This document shows positions 48,270 to 57,649 of a stretch of DNA of 57,649 nt, in pieces. The stretch's first letter is position 1, and every line of letters starts with the position of its first letter. The stretch comes from Acidobacteriota bacterium. GTDB taxonomy: Bacteria > Acidobacteriota > Terriglobia > Versatilivoradales > Versatilivoraceae. A model generated the notes under the pieces. It worked only from the letters and a program-made list of their open reading frames with translations. It did not search any database and was not told the origin of the DNA. The DNA lies in the NCBI GenBank assembly GCA_028875575.1, contig JAPPDF010000053.1, positions 1 to 57,649 of the forward strand, written 5' to 3'. Made by a program: the position numbers and the translations under genes.

Positions 48270-51200
48270 TTGTTCTCTGTGATCGTATTGAACATCAACA
48301 GGCTTTCATCATGTATCCGGCCACCCGGTGAGAAATGCGGGCCAAGGACAAGCTCCCCGTGCTGGATTGTCCTTGCCTGGCACTTCGCCCTGCTGTGGTT
48401 CCTTCCAACCGGCGCGTTCGGGCAAGGTATCTGCGACCGCACGCCTCAGGTGCGGGAAGCCCTATTGGAGGTTACCAGGATATCCACCTGCGGACAGGTC
48501 ACCGGCGCCCATCTGTCCAGCGTGCGGCGACTGGATCTTTCGGCGTCCGAAATCACCGAGCTCAAGCAGAACGACTTCAGCGGTCTGAACTCCCTGGAAT
48601 GGTTGCGGTTGAACGAAAACTCCCTGACCGAATTGCCTCAAGGGATCTTCAATGGACTGAATTCGTTGAAAGGCCTGTGGTTGCAGAACAATTCCCTAGC
48701 TGCTTTACGCGATACGGTTTTTAGCGGGTTAGGCAGGCTGCGTGAACTGGTGCTGTTTCAAAACTCGCTGAGTGTGCTACCCGAAGGAATTTTTTCCGGT
48801 CTGGTCGAGCTGAGAACTTTGCGCCTGCAGGACAACTCTCTGAGGACATTGCCCGAGGGAGTTTTTCAAGGGTTGCACAATCTGAGTGAGATGACATTTC
48901 TAGGAAACTCTCTGAGAGACTTACCTGGGGAAATCTTTAGTGGCTTGAGCAATTTGAAACACCTGAATCTAGGTCGGAACTCGTTGGGTTCGCTGCCCAA
49001 GGATATCTTCAGCGGGTTGAACGCACTTGCGGATTTGGGTTTATCGGGAAACCAGCTAAGTGAGTTACCCGAAGAGATCTTTAGCGATCTGAACTCGCTG
49101 GAAACGCTTTGGCTAGTGGACAACCCTCTGAGCACTCTGCCCGCGGGAATCTTCGACGATGTCCTGGATACGATGGGAAGCAGTCCCCATGGGCCCGGAC
49201 TCGGAGTAGACAACCACATGAAGGCCAGTTTGGCCTTCGCTGCGACTTCACAAATCGTATTTTCAGGAACTAATGTGACGGTTACCGTGACGCTGAGCCG
49301 CGAGTTGCCCGTGGCCGTTCGGCTACCCTACAGCCTGGGAGGCAGCGCCACCGAGAACGACTATGCGAATCTGTCCCCCCAACCGGAATCGGGGCTGCTT
49401 TTTCCGGCCGGAGAGACGAGCAAGGAGATTCGTTTTGCGCTGCCGGAAAGCGACGACCGCCCGGGTAAAACGATCGTGCTGACCTTGGGGGAGCTCTCCC
49501 GGGTCCGTCTGCGCCGCTCCGACGGCTCGCCCCCTGACGCTCCTTTTCTGAAGGCCGAAACCCTGGTCGACCGTCCCGAGGATCTGGCCGACCATACGGT
49601 TACGATTTCTTCCCCTAACCAGCCTACGGGTCTTTGCAACCGTACGCCTCAGGTTAGAGACAAGCTGCTGGAGATCACGGGGATACCCGACTGCGCACAA
49701 GTCACACTGGGGCGTCTGGCTGAAGTCACCCGGTTGGATCTTTCAGGCAGCGGACTCACCGCACTTCAAGCGCACGACTTCGGCGGCTTGGTCGCACTGC
49801 ACAGCCTGTTATTGAACAACAACTCCCTCAGGACGCCGCCCGAGGGCGTCTTCAGCGGTCTGAAATCGCTGCGGGTGCTGTGGTTGCAGGGCAACGGGTT
49901 CAACAGCCTTCCCCTTCGAGTTCTGGACGAAGTGATCCACAGGCTGGAGGACCTGCGGGTGGATCCCCGACTGAGCGCCAGCCTTGCCTTTGAGTCGAGT
50001 GCGCAGGAAACGGTGACAGGCGCAACCGTGAGGGTTCGGGTGTGGCTGAGCCGTGCCCTGCCGGTGGCGGTGCGCGTACCCTACAGCGTGAGCGGCACTG
50101 CCACCGAGACCGACTATGGCGGGTTGTTCCCCTCTCCGGAAGTTGGGCTCTTGTTCCCTGCCGGCGAGACTGGGGGGCAGATTGTATTTACTCCCTTGGA
50201 GGACTCGGAAGCCTTGGGGAAGACCGTGGTGCTGACCCTGGGGGAGCTCTCCGAGATCGGACTGCGCCGCTCCGACGGTAGCGGCGACGATGCTCCCGGA
50301 CTGGACGCCGGGGTGCTGGTGGACCGGCCGGCCGCTGGAGCCGTCCACACCGTGACCATGGCTCACTCCAACCAACCGGCAGACGTCTGCGAACGCACGC
50401 CGCAAGTGAGGGATGCGCTGGTCGAAAGGCTTGGCCGGGTCTGCGAGGACATTACGACGGCGCATTTGGCCGAAGTGCGAATCCTGAGTGTGGATGACCC
50501 CGAGTTTACTACCCTTCAAGCACACGACTTCAGCGGGCTGATCGCCCTGGAATATCTGCTGTTGGATCGCAACTCCCTGACCTCATTGGCCGAAGAGGTC
50601 TTCAGCGAATTAACCTCCCTGAAAGGGCTCCGGTTGCAGGACAACTCGCTAAGCATGTTGCCAGAGGGAGTCTTCCAGGGGCTGAATTCTCTGCGAGAGC
50701 TATATTTGTATAGAAACTCTCTGAGCGTCCTGCCTCCCAAGGTCTTTCGCGGCCTGGGCAACCTGCGCGAGTTGCGGTTGTGGGGAAATTCCCTGACCGG
50801 CTTGCCGCCGGGTGTATTCCAGGGGCTGAGCAAACTGGAGGACCTCGAGTTGGGCGCTAACCACTTGAACCAACTTCCGGAGGGAATCTTTAGCGGCCTT
50901 GACAACCTGCGAAGCTTGTGGTTGTCCTTGAACCCCATCAACGAGTTGCCAGAGGGAGTCTTCGACGGTCTGAGCAAGCTGGAAGAGCTGCGGTTGTTGG
51001 GCAACCACCTGGAAGATCTGCCCGTGGACATTTTGGACGGATTGGACAACCTGCGCCTCTTGGTATTGTCCGGCAACCCCCTGAAGGATCTACCCGAGGG
51101 AATCCTGGACGATGTGCTCGATACCTTGGGCGGAGAATACACTGTCGATTTCGGAGCAGGCGTGCTGGGCGGCAACCCTAACGTCATACAAGTGCCCTAT

Positions 51201-52457
51201 CGCGGCCATCTGTCCGTGGATTCCGACCTGAAGGCCACGCTCGCCTTTGCTTCAACCGAAACCGAGGCGCCGGAGGGCGCCACCGTGAGGGTGCCGGTCA
51301 CCTTGAGCCGGGAGCTTCCGGTGTCCGTGAGGGTGCCCTATTCCGTCGGCTTCGGCGGGGCCTCAGCCGGTTACACCAACCTCTCTCCCGCTCTGGACAG
51401 CGGGCTTCTCTTTCCGGCGGGAGAGACCCGAGGCCAAATTTCCTTCACATTGTTGCGGGATACCGCCGCCCAGGGAGAAAGAAGCCTGGTGCTGACCCTG
51501 GGGAAGCCCACCGAGATCCGCCTGCGCCGCTCCCACGGGGAGCCCCCCGACGCTCCGGACCTAAGGAGCGATAGTCTTGTCCTCCGGTCCAAGCACCAAG
51601 CCCTCCACACCGTGACCGTTTCCGACGTCGATCCGGCAGAGCGGGACCCCTTCTGCCTCTCGCTGTGGCAGGATTCGCCCTGCTCCACGGTGGCCATCCT
51701 GCCTCATCTCTTCCTGGGCCCCCTGGGCGAGCATCTGGCCAATACTGAAGTGGCTGTCACCCACAAGGACCCCGAAGCGGCTCATTGCGAGGTGGCAGTG
51801 TTGTTTGACCAAGGGACCTCGATGGCCTCGGCGGTGTCGTTCAGCGGACGGTTTCCGGACGGTAACCTCTTCCGCACCACCCTTCCCAGGGGAGGGGCCG
51901 AGTTGCTGACCCTGACGGCTCCAGATGCCGGACAGCTGACATCCGGAGCTCTATACGTCTTTGCTCGCTCGCCCTGCCAGACCGGCTCCCTTCAGGTCCA
52001 GGCGCGCCATCTGCTGGAAAGTCCATCCGATGGAGAAACGGTGGAACTGTTTTCCGTAGACGGCCAATCGGAAAACGACTGGCTGGGAGACGGAGACTGC
52101 CGCAGGCTGACCGCAATGTTGAGAAATGGCGACAACGTGGGACTGGCTTCGGTGACCACCCGGCCGGGACAATCGGCCCCGCCCGGCACCCGACTCCGCT
52201 TCGCGGAATTCGATCTGAATGGGAACTTGATCGGCAGCCTCGGCAGCCTGGAGATCTACGGGCAGCACCACGCCACATATCCCTGGTCGCTCGATCGGCC
52301 CGCAACCATCCAGATGTGCCTGGACGTGCCCGGCGCCAGTGACTTTCAACTGGCCATCGATGCCCTGGGCACCACGGCCGGGGGCGCCAAGGTGCAATTT
52401 TCCACCGTGATCATTCCCGGTGACACCGGGCCGGACGACCGCGGCCCGAGTCGATAA
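48270..52457 (+). CDS. Secreted LRR protein with three cap-LRR-Calx-beta-like modules
   Basis: A 1395-residue secreted or surface protein. After a signal-like segment (WIVLAWHFALLWFLPTGAFG, about residues 33-52) come three homologous modules. Each opens with a Cys-RTPQVR cap (Cys55, 456, 707). LRRs of the type LPEGIFSGLxxLxxLxLxxNSL follow, about 10 in module 1, three or four in module 2, about 11 in module 3. Each module ends in a Calx-beta-like sandwich (about 317-427, 570-680, 987-1095: VTLSRELPVxVRVPYS, GLLFPAGET, LVLTLGE, IxLRRS). A separate C-terminal domain (1120-1385) carries Cys pairs. The TTG 48270 start is a guess; GTG 48279 and TTG 48288 are alternatives, and all lie in a MITE relic. 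The subtilase gene follows 12 bases later. Likely role: extracellular binding or adhesion. Confidence 0.85.
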   Translation: MFSVIVLNINRLSSCIRPPGEKCGPRTSSPCWIVLAWHFALLWFLPTGAFGQGICDRTPQVREALLEVTRISTCGQVTGAHLSSVRRLDLSASEITELKQNDFSGLNSLEWLRLNENSLTELPQGIFNGLNSLKGLWLQNNSLAALRDTVFSGLGRLRELVLFQNSLSVLPEGIFSGLVELRTLRLQDNSLRTLPEGVFQGLHNLSEMTFLGNSLRDLPGEIFSGLSNLKHLNLGRNSLGSLPKDIFSGLNALADLGLSGNQLSELPEEIFSDLNSLETLWLVDNPLSTLPAGIFDDVLDTMGSSPHGPGLGVDNHMKASLAFAATSQIVFSGTNVTVTVTLSRELPVAVRLPYSLGGSATENDYANLSPQPESGLLFPAGETSKEIRFALPESDDRPGKTIVLTLGELSRVRLRRSDGSPPDAPFLKAETLVDRPEDLADHTVTISSPNQPTGLCNRTPQVRDKLLEITGIPDCAQVTLGRLAEVTRLDLSGSGLTALQAHDFGGLVALHSLLLNNNSLRTPPEGVFSGLKSLRVLWLQGNGFNSLPLRVLDEVIHRLEDLRVDPRLSASLAFESSAQETVTGATVRVRVWLSRALPVAVRVPYSVSGTATETDYGGLFPSPEVGLLFPAGETGGQIVFTPLEDSEALGKTVVLTLGELSEIGLRRSDGSGDDAPGLDAGVLVDRPAAGAVHTVTMAHSNQPADVCERTPQVRDALVERLGRVCEDITTAHLAEVRILSVDDPEFTTLQAHDFSGLIALEYLLLDRNSLTSLAEEVFSELTSLKGLRLQDNSLSMLPEGVFQGLNSLRELYLYRNSLSVLPPKVFRGLGNLRELRLWGNSLTGLPPGVFQGLSKLEDLELGANHLNQLPEGIFSGLDNLRSLWLSLNPINELPEGVFDGLSKLEELRLLGNHLEDLPVDILDGLDNLRLLVLSGNPLKDLPEGILDDVLDTLGGEYTVDFGAGVLGGNPNVIQVPYRGHLSVDSDLKATLAFASTETEAPEGATVRVPVTLSRELPVSVRVPYSVGFGGASAGYTNLSPALDSGLLFPAGETRGQISFTLLRDTAAQGERSLVLTLGKPTEIRLRRSHGEPPDAPDLRSDSLVLRSKHQALHTVTVSDVDPAERDPFCLSLWQDSPCSTVAILPHLFLGPLGEHLANTEVAVTHKDPEAAHCEVAVLFDQGTSMASAVSFSGRFPDGNLFRTTLPRGGAELLTLTAPDAGQLTSGALYVFARSPCQTGSLQVQARHLLESPSDGETVELFSVDGQSENDWLGDGDCRRLTAMLRNGDNVGLASVTTRPGQSAPPGTRLRFAEFDLNGNLIGSLGSLEIYGQHHATYPWSLDRPATIQMCLDVPGASDFQLAIDALGTTAGGAKVQFSTVIIPGDTGPDDRGPSR
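48280..48344 (+). mobile_element. Relic of MITE right end inside the LRR gene 5' region
   Basis: CCCGGTGAGAAATGCGGGCC (48324-48343) matches the right terminal repeat of the elements at 2446 and 56510 with two or three changes. The 20-45 bases before it (CTTTCATCATGTATCC) resemble 56715-56736. The rest of the element is not recognisable. The frame of the LRR protein runs through it just before the signal sequence. Confidence 0.6.
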
Positions 52458-52469
52458 AGGTCTGATCGC

Positions 52470-55400
52470 ATGATCGAGAGAGAGCCGTACACGAGCGGTA
52501 AGTCCGCAGCCCGGATCGGGCTGAGGCTGTGCGTACCCCTGCTTCTGCTGGCCGATCCCGGATCGGCCGGTTCCCAGGACGGCCTCCCCAATCTGAGACC
52601 CGTTCGCCCTGAGGGCTGGTCGGACAGCCTGGTGATCTCCAACCGGCAGGAGACACACACCGAAACCCTCCGGCTGATGGCCCAGGATCGCCTTTTTGTG
52701 GACTTCGCCGTCATCAACAGCGGCGGCTCCCCGGCCGCCGCGCGTTTCCGGATCGAGCTCTTCCTGGACGGCCGCTTGAGGGAAACCTTCGATGTGGCCC
52801 CTCCCCTGGACCCACAGGTCTTTCGATTTCGCGAGGACTATCCCCTTGGAAGATTGAGCAGCGGCACCCACACGCTTCGAGTCGTTGTCGACGGGGGAGA
52901 AGCGGTCCCGGAAAGCGACGAGACCGACAACCAGTACACCAAGACTTTTTTCGTCAGCGGCGCCTGCTTCCCGCTGACCACCAGGGTTTCACCGAGGGGG
53001 GCCGGAACCGTGACGCCCAACCGAGAGCCCAACTGCGGCAGCACCACACTCAGTGTCAGAAGCTCGGATGTCGATGATCAGGATTCAAACCAGAAATTGG
53101 GCATGGGCGGAGAACCGGTGCTGCAGGCTCAGCGGGACAGGGCGTTTGAGGCACTGAGGGCCAGGGTTCGGGGCGAAGGCAAGGCAAAGGTGATCGTGGG
53201 ATTGAAGACCGATGGCCAATCGGTGTCAGCGGCGGTCAGCAGCCTGAATGAAGTCCAAGCCCGCTCCCCGCTGATTTCCCGCGTCCAGCAATCGCTGCTG
53301 ACCCGATTGGGCGGCCACAACCTCTCGTCGGTTCGTCGCTTCAAGTACATGCCCCATGTGGCCATGGAGGTGGACGAGCCCGCTCTGGAGGCACTGGCCT
53401 CCGACCCGGAGGTGGTTACCCTGGAGGAGGACATCAGGGTCGAGCCTCTGCTGGAGACGAGCACGACCCTGGTCGGCGCACCCAATGCCTGGAACCTAGG
53501 GTATTCGGGAGCAGGCCAGGCGGTCGCCATCCTGGATACGGGGGTGGACGGGAAACACCCTTTTCTGAGGGGCCGGGTGGTGGCGGAGGCCTGTTATTCC
53601 GGCGCCGAAAGCCGCTGGACGCCGCTCTGTCCCGGGGGCGTCAGGGAGTCCACCGGCATGGAGTCGGGAGAGCCCTGTTCTTCGTCAAGCAGTTGTTTCC
53701 ACGGCACCGCCGTAGCCGGGGTGGCCGCCGGGAGAGGGACGATGTTCTCGGGAGTGGCCCCCGAGTCCGGGATCATCGCCATACAAGCGTTTTCCCAGTG
53801 CCCGGGCCCCGTCAACTGCCTGGCGTCATCCACCAGCGATTGGGTGGCCGGCCTCGAGCGGGTCCTGGAGCTGAGCGGCGGCTACGACATCGCCGCGGTC
53901 AACATGAGCTTCGGTGGGGATCTCTTCTCGGAAGAATGCGACGCCGAATTCCCCGCGGTGAAGGCCGCCATGGACAATTTACGGGCGTTGGGCATCGCGC
54001 CCGTTGCCGCTTCCGGGAACAAGGGATCCTCAACCGGAATCGACTTCCCATCCTGTATCTCCAGCGCAGTCAGCGTGGGCTCCACCGACACCGGCGCCGA
54101 TGAAACGACCGCGGATGAGGTCTCAGTCTTCTCCAACAACTCTCCCTTGCTGGACCTGCTGGCGCCCGGCCGGGGGATCAACACCTCGGTGCCCGGCGAG
54201 GATTTCGGTCGCTTCAATGGAACCTCCTTTTCCACACCTCACGTCGCCGGTGCCTGGGCGGTGCTCAAATCGAAGGCGCCCAACGCTTCGGTTGCGGAGC
54301 TGCTTTCCGCCTTGAAGAGTACCGGTGTTCCCGTTGTCGATCCCCGGAACCAGCTCATCAAGCCTCGAATCCAGGTGGACGCCGCCCTCGACAAGATCGT
54401 CAGAGAAATCCCCTATACCACCGGTACCCGCCTGACACTGACCGCCGGGCCCAATCCCGGCTTCCGCTTCAAGGGCTGGCAAGGGTGCGATTCGCCTTCA
54501 GGGAATCGCTGCGCGGTCGAGATAGACTCGAGCAGGCAGGTGGTTGCCCTCTTTGAACCGACGTCAGCAGCCCACCCCGATCTGATCCCCACTTCGCTGG
54601 TGGCTCCTCCGACCGCCGACTTCGGGCGTCCGGTCTCGATTTACGCCGCCGTCAGCAATCCGGGCCCGGTGGATGCCGGTCCTTTCCGGGTCGGATTCTA
54701 TCTGTCGGTCGACGACATCATTACCATCGACGACACCTGGTTTGCCGCCTGCTCCTTCGACTCGGGTCTGGCCGCGGGAGAATCGGAGACCTGCGACCGG
54801 CTGTTTCCGCTGCCTCCCCGGCTGAGTGCCGGCCGTTACTTCCTGGGCGCCATCGTAGACGACCTGGACCAGGTGTCCGAGAGCAGCGAGACCAACAATG
54901 TCAAGGCCAGCGACGGAGGGCCGCTCGAAGTCTTTGCTCCGCCTCCGGGCGCCCGGTCGTTCATCCCGGTGGTCTTGAGTTCAGCCGGGCTCAGGAATTC
55001 CTTCTTCACCTCGGAGCTGACCCTGACCAATCGGAGCGCTCAGGAGACGCGACTCGAATTCATCTACAAGTCCCACCGGGGTGGGGGAAGCGGCCTGGCT
55101 TCCGATGTGATCGCCCCCGGCCGGCAGATGATTGTGCCAAATGCCCTCGACTATCTCAGGCAGCAGGGGCTTCCCGTTCCCTCGACCGGAAACCGCATCG
55201 GGACGCTGGAGGTGAGGCTTCCCGATTCTTCTTCGGAGATCGGAGCCCTGGTTCGGACCGCCACGGCCGTGCCCGAGGGCCGGGCCGGTCTGGCCTATGC
55301 CGGCATCGACGGCGACAGGGGATTCCATGAAGCCGTCTATCTGTGCGGCTTGCGCCAGAACACCCGGGACCGCTCCAATGTGGCTTTCCAGAACATGGGC

Positions 55401-56435
55401 ACCACGGCCGACGGAACGATCACCTTGAAGACCACGGTGTTTTCCGGCGACCCCGGTGATGACACCGTCAGGGACCTTGGGACCATGGAGCTTGGCCCCG
55501 GAGAGTTTCACCAGTTTTCGCCGGTGCTGGGGACGGTGGCCAACGGCTACGTCAGGGTGGAGCCGGTTGACGGAGAGGCCCCCTTCTATGCCTACGGCGT
55601 CATCAACGACCAGACCAACTCCGACGGCTCCTTCGTCTTCCCGGTCTCAGCCGGTTCGCTGGAGGGCAGCCTGCGCCACACCCTGCCGGTGATCGTCGAG
55701 GTCAACGAGTTCTCCAGCGAACTGATAGTGACCAACTTCTCCGAAGAAACCAAGACCCTCGACTTCAGCTTCGTGGCGGAGGGACTCACCACTCCTGACG
55801 ACACGGCCGGCTTCAGCCTGAGGCTGGAACCCGGCCGGCAGCGGATCATTCCCGATGTCATCCACACCGAATTGCGCCGGAAGGGCGTGCAAGGGGTGCC
55901 CGCGGGAAGGGGTGGACTGGCCGGAGCCCTGTTCGCCACGGTGAAGAGCGGCGACATGAGCGGGATCGTGATCGGGGCCCGCACCAGTTCCTCCGACGGC
56001 CGCGGCGGGCAGTACGGGGTCTTCTACAATGCCGTGCCCGACGGGGCAGCCGTTACCGGCAGCGCCTGGATCGACGCCCTGCAGCAGAACGAAGAGAACC
56101 GCAGCAACCTGGCCCTGGTCAACACCGGAGAAGTCGACGACAGCCCCAGCCTCTTCGAGATCGACATCTACGACGGGGAGACCGGCATGCTGGTCAGGAC
56201 GGTCTCCATGGACAATGTCAGGCCCGAAGACGCCAACGGCATCAGGCTGGCGGCCAGGCGCTGGCATCAGATCAACGGCATCCTGAGCAAGTACACCCGG
56301 GGAACCACCCAGGGCTACGTTCGGGTCCGCCGGATTTCCGGCAACAATCCCTTCCTGGCCTACGGGGTGGTCAACGACGGCGGGGCTCCCGGGCAACGCA
56401 GCGGCGACGGGGCTTACGTCCCGGCGCGGGACTAG
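52470..56435 (+). CDS. Secreted subtilase (S8) inserted in a split InlB-type repeat, with C-terminal surface modules
   Basis: A 1321-residue exported serine protease. Order: signal region (LRLCVPLLLLADPGSAGS); a CARDB-like domain (about 60-160, ending ESDETDN); half of an InlB B-repeat-like domain (CFPLTTRVSPRGAGTV to NCGS, 166-191); an I9-like propeptide (KVIVGLKTDG... to DPEVVTLEED); and the S8 domain with triad Asp356 (ILDTGVDG), His411 (CFHGTAVAG) and Ser586 (NGTSFSTPHVAG). Then comes the other half of the repeat (YTTGTRLTLTAGPNPGFRFK, 649-695), a second CARDB (SNPGPVDAGPF...SSETNN), and two copies of a paired beta module (SELTLTN, RSNVAFQN; SELIVTN, RSNLALVN). Twelve bases after the LRR gene; co-transcribed. 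Confidence 0.92.
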   Translation: MIEREPYTSGKSAARIGLRLCVPLLLLADPGSAGSQDGLPNLRPVRPEGWSDSLVISNRQETHTETLRLMAQDRLFVDFAVINSGGSPAAARFRIELFLDGRLRETFDVAPPLDPQVFRFREDYPLGRLSSGTHTLRVVVDGGEAVPESDETDNQYTKTFFVSGACFPLTTRVSPRGAGTVTPNREPNCGSTTLSVRSSDVDDQDSNQKLGMGGEPVLQAQRDRAFEALRARVRGEGKAKVIVGLKTDGQSVSAAVSSLNEVQARSPLISRVQQSLLTRLGGHNLSSVRRFKYMPHVAMEVDEPALEALASDPEVVTLEEDIRVEPLLETSTTLVGAPNAWNLGYSGAGQAVAILDTGVDGKHPFLRGRVVAEACYSGAESRWTPLCPGGVRESTGMESGEPCSSSSSCFHGTAVAGVAAGRGTMFSGVAPESGIIAIQAFSQCPGPVNCLASSTSDWVAGLERVLELSGGYDIAAVNMSFGGDLFSEECDAEFPAVKAAMDNLRALGIAPVAASGNKGSSTGIDFPSCISSAVSVGSTDTGADETTADEVSVFSNNSPLLDLLAPGRGINTSVPGEDFGRFNGTSFSTPHVAGAWAVLKSKAPNASVAELLSALKSTGVPVVDPRNQLIKPRIQVDAALDKIVREIPYTTGTRLTLTAGPNPGFRFKGWQGCDSPSGNRCAVEIDSSRQVVALFEPTSAAHPDLIPTSLVAPPTADFGRPVSIYAAVSNPGPVDAGPFRVGFYLSVDDIITIDDTWFAACSFDSGLAAGESETCDRLFPLPPRLSAGRYFLGAIVDDLDQVSESSETNNVKASDGGPLEVFAPPPGARSFIPVVLSSAGLRNSFFTSELTLTNRSAQETRLEFIYKSHRGGGSGLASDVIAPGRQMIVPNALDYLRQQGLPVPSTGNRIGTLEVRLPDSSSEIGALVRTATAVPEGRAGLAYAGIDGDRGFHEAVYLCGLRQNTRDRSNVAFQNMGTTADGTITLKTTVFSGDPGDDTVRDLGTMELGPGEFHQFSPVLGTVANGYVRVEPVDGEAPFYAYGVINDQTNSDGSFVFPVSAGSLEGSLRHTLPVIVEVNEFSSELIVTNFSEETKTLDFSFVAEGLTTPDDTAGFSLRLEPGRQRIIPDVIHTELRRKGVQGVPAGRGGLAGALFATVKSGDMSGIVIGARTSSSDGRGGQYGVFYNAVPDGAAVTGSAWIDALQQNEENRSNLALVNTGEVDDSPSLFEIDIYDGETGMLVRTVSMDNVRPEDANGIRLAARRWHQINGILSKYTRGTTQGYVRVRRISGNNPFLAYGVVNDGGAPGQRSGDGAYVPARD

Positions 56436-56871: not shown

Positions 56872-57649
56872 ATGAAACCTCTAACTCGGATGGTTCTCTT
56901 GGGATGCGTATTGGTCATGGCTGGCGTCCTGTCCGGTGTGGGTCCCGCCTCGGCCCAGGAAGCACCCGATGTCACGGCCCAGGATGTGGTGGACCGGGAT
57001 ACCCTGAAAGCCTTCGTCCAGGGGGCGATTGCATGGTTGGGGGCGCAATTCGAGAGTGGAGAGGCGGTGGACATTAACGCCCTGAAGGATCTCTTCAGGA
57101 TGGAACCTGGTCCCTGGAAGCACGGGTCCACCTACTTCGTTGTGCTGGTGAATAATTACTTGGTTGAAGGTGCGGTATTGGTTTTTTTCGACGCGGGCAA
57201 TCCAGACCGCGATTTCAAGCTCCTCTCGGTGATTGAAGACGCCAATGTGGTGAAGATCATGCAAGATCTCGTCGCTGCGGCAGTCGATAATGCACCCATG
57301 ATGGAAGGAGGCTTTGTCGCGTATGAAGAGGCAGGTGTGAGTAGAGTCAGCTATGCTCAACTTGTCGTTGCGCCGGAGAACGCAGGAGTTATCGCCAATC
57401 AGCAACTTGTCATCAGCGCCGGTTTCGATTCCGCAGACGTTCCAGCCGAGATGGACATGATGACGACCTTCGTACCGGTGGTGCTGGACTTGAGGGGGAA
57501 GAGCAACTCCCACTTCACCTCGGAGCTGGCCCTGACCAACCGGGGTGACGAGGCGGCCATGCTCAACTTCACCTACACGGCCGAAGCCGGCGGGGGCAGC
57601 GGCACCGCCACCGACATGCTGGGTCCCCACCAGCAGAAGATCGAGGCCA
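56872..57649 (+). CDS. Secreted single-Cache-domain protein with surface module, truncated by window end
   Basis: The first 259 residues are visible; the 3' end is outside the window. A signal peptide (MVLLGCVLVMAGVLSGV, cleavage after PASA) is followed by a sCache_2-like sensor domain. Its features are DTLKAFVQGAIAWL, LKDLFRMEPGPWKHGSTYFV, VLVFFDAGNPDRDFKLLSVI, DANVVKIMQDL, GGFVAYEEAGVSRVSYAQLV. From about residue 212, TFVPVVLDLRGKSNSHFTSE, LALTNRGDEAAMLNFTYTAE and AGGGSGTATDML begin the module repeated at the C-terminus of the subtilase. AAGGAG (56858-56863) sets the start. A Cache domain outside a chemoreceptor or kinase, joined to a surface module, is unusual; it may bind a small ligand at the cell surface. 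Confidence 0.9.
   Translation, partial: MKPLTRMVLLGCVLVMAGVLSGVGPASAQEAPDVTAQDVVDRDTLKAFVQGAIAWLGAQFESGEAVDINALKDLFRMEPGPWKHGSTYFVVLVNNYLVEGAVLVFFDAGNPDRDFKLLSVIEDANVVKIMQDLVAAAVDNAPMMEGGFVAYEEAGVSRVSYAQLVVAPENAGVIANQQLVISAGFDSADVPAEMDMMTTFVPVVLDLRGKSNSHFTSELALTNRGDEAAMLNFTYTAEAGGGSGTATDMLGPHQQKIEA

Follow-up and report, generated by a model that had tools for sequence, protein, structure and literature searches.

Can a complete protease, propeptide included, lie within a single small beta domain, and what would then become of that domain once the enzyme has cut its own chain? The question is raised by an open reading frame in the 57,649-nucleotide stretch of acidobacterial DNA analysed here (the window), for which a sequence-only reading had proposed that two distant segments of the product, residues 166-191 and 649-695, belong to one InlB B-repeat. 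The quoted text is present in the translation, and the features assigned to the protein and to the gene in front of it are as follows.

48270 to 52457, + strand: gene for an LRR and Calx-beta protein, 12 bp upstream of the protease gene
52470 to 56435, + strand: the whole open reading frame, 1321 amino acids with an ATG start, a secreted subtilase with a nested B-repeat
52470 to 52580, + strand: probable signal peptide, residues about 1-37, with the hydrophobic IGLRLCVPLLLLADPGSAGS in the translation and a putative cleavage point
52581 to 52958, + strand: first CARDB-like domain, residues about 38-163, the weaker of the two Pfam CARDB stretches, borders presumed
52965 to 53042, + strand: N-terminal half of a divergent InlB B-repeat, the beta1-beta2 hairpin, residues 166-191, from the spliced Pfam match, AlphaFold2 strands and conservation
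53043 to 53111, + strand: variable, probably disordered linker, residues 192-214 (pLDDT about 25-26 in model blocks 31-50; 19% identity)
53112 to 53441, + strand: I9-like propeptide with a leading helix, residues about 215-324 (predicted order: helix, then E-H-E-E-H-E)
53442 to 54395, + strand: S8 catalytic domain, residues about 325-642, triad D356, H411 and S586 (Pfam Peptidase_S8, 4.1e-36)
54414 to 54560, + strand: C-terminal half of the B-repeat, beta3 onwards, residues 649-697 (Flg_new_2 profile 19-71; strands at model residues 495-538)
54576 to 54908, + strand: second CARDB domain, residues 703-813 (Pfam CARDB, 7.1e-23)
54948 to 56432, + strand: C-terminal module of no recognised kind, residues 827-1321, recurring in many secreted proteins of this bacterial family

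Searched intact against Pfam, the protein matches S8 at residues 347-618, CARDB in two stretches (the better at 703-813) and Flg_new_2 at 649-697, with no known surface anchor among its matches. The adhesin or surface-stalk role raised in the sequence-only reading is unsupported, no sign of anchoring or of receptor binding having come to light. Its place in S8 is marked by D356, H411 and S586, which together with N517 are invariant among the four paralogues compared. The Flg_new_2 match of the intact protein, at 29.8 bits (gathering cut-off 23.6), covers profile positions 19-71 of 73 only. When the flanks 166-191 and 649-697 are spliced the score rises to 46.2 bits and the match to positions 2-71 of 73, while the C-flank by itself reaches 33.9 bits over positions 19-71 and the N-flank by itself has no Pfam match. 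The observation made in the sequence-only reading is confirmed: these segments are the halves of one divergent InlB B-repeat, interrupted by a linker, an I9-like propeptide and a complete S8 protease.

Several comparisons with uninterrupted repeats bear on the smaller, N-terminal half. Scored with an in-house HMM made from 66 uninterrupted repeats, the N-flank of the window protein adds 11.7 bits on splicing, a gain equalled by none of 200 control flanks (100 shuffled, 100 cut from elsewhere in this protein). For the rest of the family, splicing adds only 2-10 bits, an amount that by itself often falls short of significance. The N-flank family matches the repeat profile weakly in hhalign (E 0.0047, 7.5% probability) and in the right register, at columns 3-15, and the spliced family aligns over columns 3 to 74. 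Conversely, uninterrupted repeats align end to end with the spliced query (positions 3-75 of 83), and one of them keeps a Cys-beta1-beta2-NC-Y order identical to that of the spliced sequence. Mean pairwise identity within the nested family is 51% for the hairpin as against 19% for the adjoining linker, so that the hairpin stands out as a conserved island, with dN/dS of 0.04-0.28. The four conserved cysteines of the repeat, C166, C189, C673 and C681, may pair within each half or across the halves. A PDB sequence search with the spliced repeat gave no useful match, and the results of fold searches were filled by subtilisins.

Residues 160-700 were modelled in AlphaFold2 with 52 sequences, and a control run was made on the same input minus the C-flank. 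The full model, with a mean pLDDT of 83, runs from the N-flank strands through a disordered linker, a helix, a beta-alpha-beta-beta-alpha-beta propeptide and the subtilase to five C-flank strands. With the C-flank present, the N-flank strands are placed at model residues 11-15 and 20-24 in a block of pLDDT 89; without it these strands vanish, the block falls to 29 and residues 1-55 all lie below 50. The hairpin is thus predicted only together with its partner half, and we infer from this loss of confidence that strands of the two flanks pair, perhaps in one compact beta-grasp-like fold; neither flank is a complete domain in the models, as the sequence-only reading had supposed. In the solved InlB B-repeat an extended loop joins beta2 and beta3, in place of the helix of the beta-grasp (PMC8900821). 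Reading the strand order of that structure onto the model would place the insert in the same beta2-beta3 connection, for which the extended loop suggests a site tolerant of insertion.

The content of the insert had been described as a whole I9 propeptide and an S8 protease. The protease part stands with its triad, and subtilisins align to model residues 166-482 with Z about 40; the propeptide has the strand and helix order predicted for it and no match to Pfam Inhibitor_I9 (PF05922), the window protein giving none at E values up to 5. Eleven of 52 relatives do match Inhibitor_I9 weakly, with an E value of 0.0011 at best, and the beta-alpha-beta-beta-alpha-beta order lies immediately before the catalytic domain in both AlphaFold2 runs; on these two grounds we regard the segment as a putative propeptide. 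In the VIA-align structural alignments mature subtilisin starts at model residue 165-166, which corresponds to residue 324-325, and pLDDT dips there too, so that a cut would be expected between the two halves of the repeat. Autocleavage near residue 324 would break the chain link between the halves. It had been claimed that propeptide cleavage would nick the host domain: the predicted cut does fall between its halves, but inside the insert, so that the host fold could stay together.

The nested layout is not peculiar to one gene. It is identical in three paralogues of the same genome, an orthologue shares 83% identity over the nested module, and strong matches occur in 8 of 399 genomes of the class (three genera), all eight with a nested copy. 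In one genome, G033, the match spans exactly residues 161-698 and the outer domains appear by eye to be BACON/SLH-like, not CARDB, which argues that what is conserved as a unit is the nested module. Another gene of G033 encodes the protease without any repeat. Across the family the outer domains vary (CARDB, FN3, SLH/BACON). A scan of about 85,000 genomes and a sorting of 88 distinct relatives yielded 54 with no repeat nearby, 17 in which the protease is followed by a complete repeat and no N-flank is present, and 17 with the C-half only behind the protease. The N-half stands before the propeptide in 13 of these last 17, the other four copies ending at a locus or contig boundary, and in the 13 intact copies half-repeat and N-flank always occur together and never apart. 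Since the hairpin is kept beside a freely changing linker, and since no intact copy has lost either half, the composite domain appears to matter, if only for stability. Most relatives have the signal peptide straight before the propeptide. Two variants may be noted: in one paralogue group, L004 and similar copies, a loop of the S8 domain has acquired a run of glutamates, EEEEEEEEEE, and in genome G004 (L023/L060) an LRR protein and the protease share one frame, the LRR part running into the protease N-terminus and the C-terminus being broken by a frame change, which may represent either a genuine fusion or a copy in decay.

The InlB-nested copies are compatible with one clade (AU p 0.955, the constrained tree being better by 63 log units) and form one clade in a second tree. 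They come from Acidobacteriota, chiefly from the genus of Candidatus Versatilivorator, and this nesting probably had one origin, in that genus and its kin. The exception, L063, lies on a metagenome-assembled genome labelled Candidatus Latescibacterota and falls within the acidobacterial clade, pointing to misbinning or transfer. No further InlB nestings were found among 396 genomes drawn from the phylum, in 41 genomes of another class, or in 400 Chloroflexota genomes by inspection of the returned loci. A search of 61 relatives with the spliced query returned no empty site, by which we mean the outer protein with its repeat unbroken and the protease missing; the uninterrupted repeats in that search occur only in other kinds of protein. 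The protease may have been inserted into a pre-existing repeat, or the N-terminal hairpin may have reached its forward position by relocation or duplication, the latter being suggested by the relatives with a complete repeat in the same place behind the protease.

The same protease subfamily is nested in other host domains. In another acidobacterial family (L191/L195) it interrupts a PKD-like domain, whose halves have no match singly and when spliced give PKD_4 at 20 bits, below the cut-off of 27; the splice aligns at 47% identity with one gap (E 3e-27) to an unbroken copy of the domain that lies farther downstream in that protein. In a protein from Chloroflexota (L077) a strand, EPDIDVQPTSLSY, lies ahead of the propeptide as the first of an ASH/BACON-like domain whose remaining part comes after the protease. 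Once spliced, this domain can be aligned from end to end with an unbroken one encoded in another genome (45%, 50 bits). Its sister L072 has a similar look, and is read as ASH-like by the parallel with L077 alone. The subfamily is probably nested in an ASH/BACON-like domain in both. A further arrangement is seen in L092/L201, where a propeptide-subtilase unit and an ASH-like domain lie between the propeptide and the catalytic domain of a second subtilase. The PKD-like, ASH-like and L092 cases branch apart from the InlB clade. Given the PKD-like and the probable ASH/BACON-like hosts, nesting appears to have recurred, and its recurrence on separate branches is what one would predict if a zymogen gains from having its two ends fixed to a single domain.

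As the best explanation of the window protein, though one to which we give only an even chance, we propose a secreted zymogen in which the I9-like propeptide and S8 protease occupy the beta2-beta3 connection of one InlB-type beta-grasp repeat. After secretion the protease would cut its own chain near residue 324, yielding an N-terminal chain of CARDB domain, hairpin, linker and propeptide, and a C-terminal chain of protease, the rest of the repeat, CARDB domain and C-terminal module. The repeat would remain formed across the cut as a non-covalent clamp on the two chains. The propeptide-bearing chain would in this way be kept beside the active site, where it could go on serving as inhibitor or chaperone, and both outer arms would be held on one particle. 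Cleavage, retention, the role as clamp and any benefit are all inferred. In a broader version, a single subtilase subfamily would have entered beta domains of unrelated kinds (InlB beta-grasp, PKD-like, ASH-like) several times over, the split domain in each case linking the front of the propeptide with the far end of the protease so that autocleavage makes a two-chain enzyme by domain complementation. Retention of an inhibitory propeptide would then be convergent; we consider this version possible, on balance rather unlikely.

Other explanations differ in how much of this they accept. That separate genes were joined by an assembly or frame artefact might be suspected of a genome assembled in 101 contigs, but the layout is repeated in three paralogues and in independent genomes, with purifying selection acting through the junctions, so that the idea can be given almost no credence. 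The flanks might instead be unrelated, the C-flank forming by itself a short domain of InlB type and the hairpin of the N-flank being separate or due to chance, which would suit the missing Pfam match of the N-flank alone and its weak profile similarity; this is largely refuted by the AlphaFold2 control and is further opposed by the splice gain, the perfect co-occurrence of the flanks and the correct register of the N-flank on the repeat profile, and we consider it very improbable.

A different question is whether the nesting, if real, has any part in maturation. The propeptide-subtilase unit could have been shuffled by chance into insertion-tolerant loops of extracellular beta domains and kept as a modular display, as the variety of hosts (InlB, PKD, ASH) and the free exchange of outer domains among family members would allow, and insertions occur in 20% of multidomain proteins according to a 2026 survey (PMC13114784). 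Against a history without a role stand the conservation of the InlB-clade hairpin beside its changing linker and the retention of both halves in every intact copy, and we regard it as a serious minority possibility. Compatible with a clamp, and only slightly short of an even chance, is an origin by relocation, in which an ancestral protease had a complete C-terminal repeat whose first hairpin was moved or duplicated to a position before the propeptide. The 17 relatives with a complete repeat, where nested copies have only the C-half, would fit such an origin, the repeat starting about 12-23 residues past the protease in nearly all of them; so would the W-x-C-D/E-x-C motif of the nested C-half, present in 10 of 35 protease-linked repeats and 1 of 35 others (p 0.006, the rows not being independent). 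The trees, however, do not resolve the tandem-repeat relatives as a sister group to the nested clade, the nearest rows being mostly without any repeat. The overall interpretation of the sequence-only reading is partly supported.

Taken singly, the parts of this protein are unremarkable representatives of families already known (S8, InlB B-repeat, CARDB), and domain insertion itself is common. Compared with the Listeria InlB B-repeat (Flg_new_2, PF18998), the spliced flanks fit the profile end to end and agree in strand order and beta2-beta3 junction, the difference being an interruption of about 457 residues that contains a protease. Triad, fold (Z about 40) and propeptide strand and helix order are those of the I9 subtilases (MEROPS S8; pro-subtilisin E 3whi, Tk-SP 9ues), in which, however, the signal peptide directly precedes the propeptide, whereas here half a domain does. 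The S8 proteases of Nitrospirota, Pseudomonadota and Thermodesulfobacteriota with complete InlB repeats share the protease subfamily and the position of the repeat, but their repeat is whole and none of it stands before the propeptide. The GAIN and SEA domains belong to autoproteolysed receptors whose parts are retained non-covalently. The proposed likeness to them is in working only, a chain being cut and a fold holding the parts, with no membership claimed; there the domain cuts itself, while in the window protein a nested enzyme would cut its own tether. Among open-licence papers we found none on a subtilase nested in an InlB repeat, and the main text of the 2026 survey makes no mention of subtilisins, proteases or InlB (PMC13114784). 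An enzyme that cuts a link inside its own host domain would put to a clean natural test the ability of a small beta-grasp fold to keep a severed protein together and, if the proposal is true, would represent a naturally evolved split-domain clamp and a new means of keeping a protease propeptide attached. For annotation it carries a warning, Pfam showing half a repeat here: half-domain matches flanking enzymes may mark hidden nestings.

Beyond the nested module, the C-terminal module (54948-56432, residues 827-1321; about 495 residues) has no Pfam match. It occurs at 14 places in the window genome, at the ends of at least 10 kinds of protein (LRR, NHL, glucose-dehydrogenase-like and others). 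Every genome searched within the bacterial family carries it, in 2-24 copies, and 49 genomes from other families all lack it; it is possibly a family-specific sorting or surface domain. The next open reading frame, 56872-57648, runs off the contig end, and the module begins there as well (57460-57642). In the window, as at the paralogous loci L002 and L003, the LRR and Calx-beta gene lies directly upstream of the protease gene, at a distance of 12 bp or with an overlap, forming a conserved pair.
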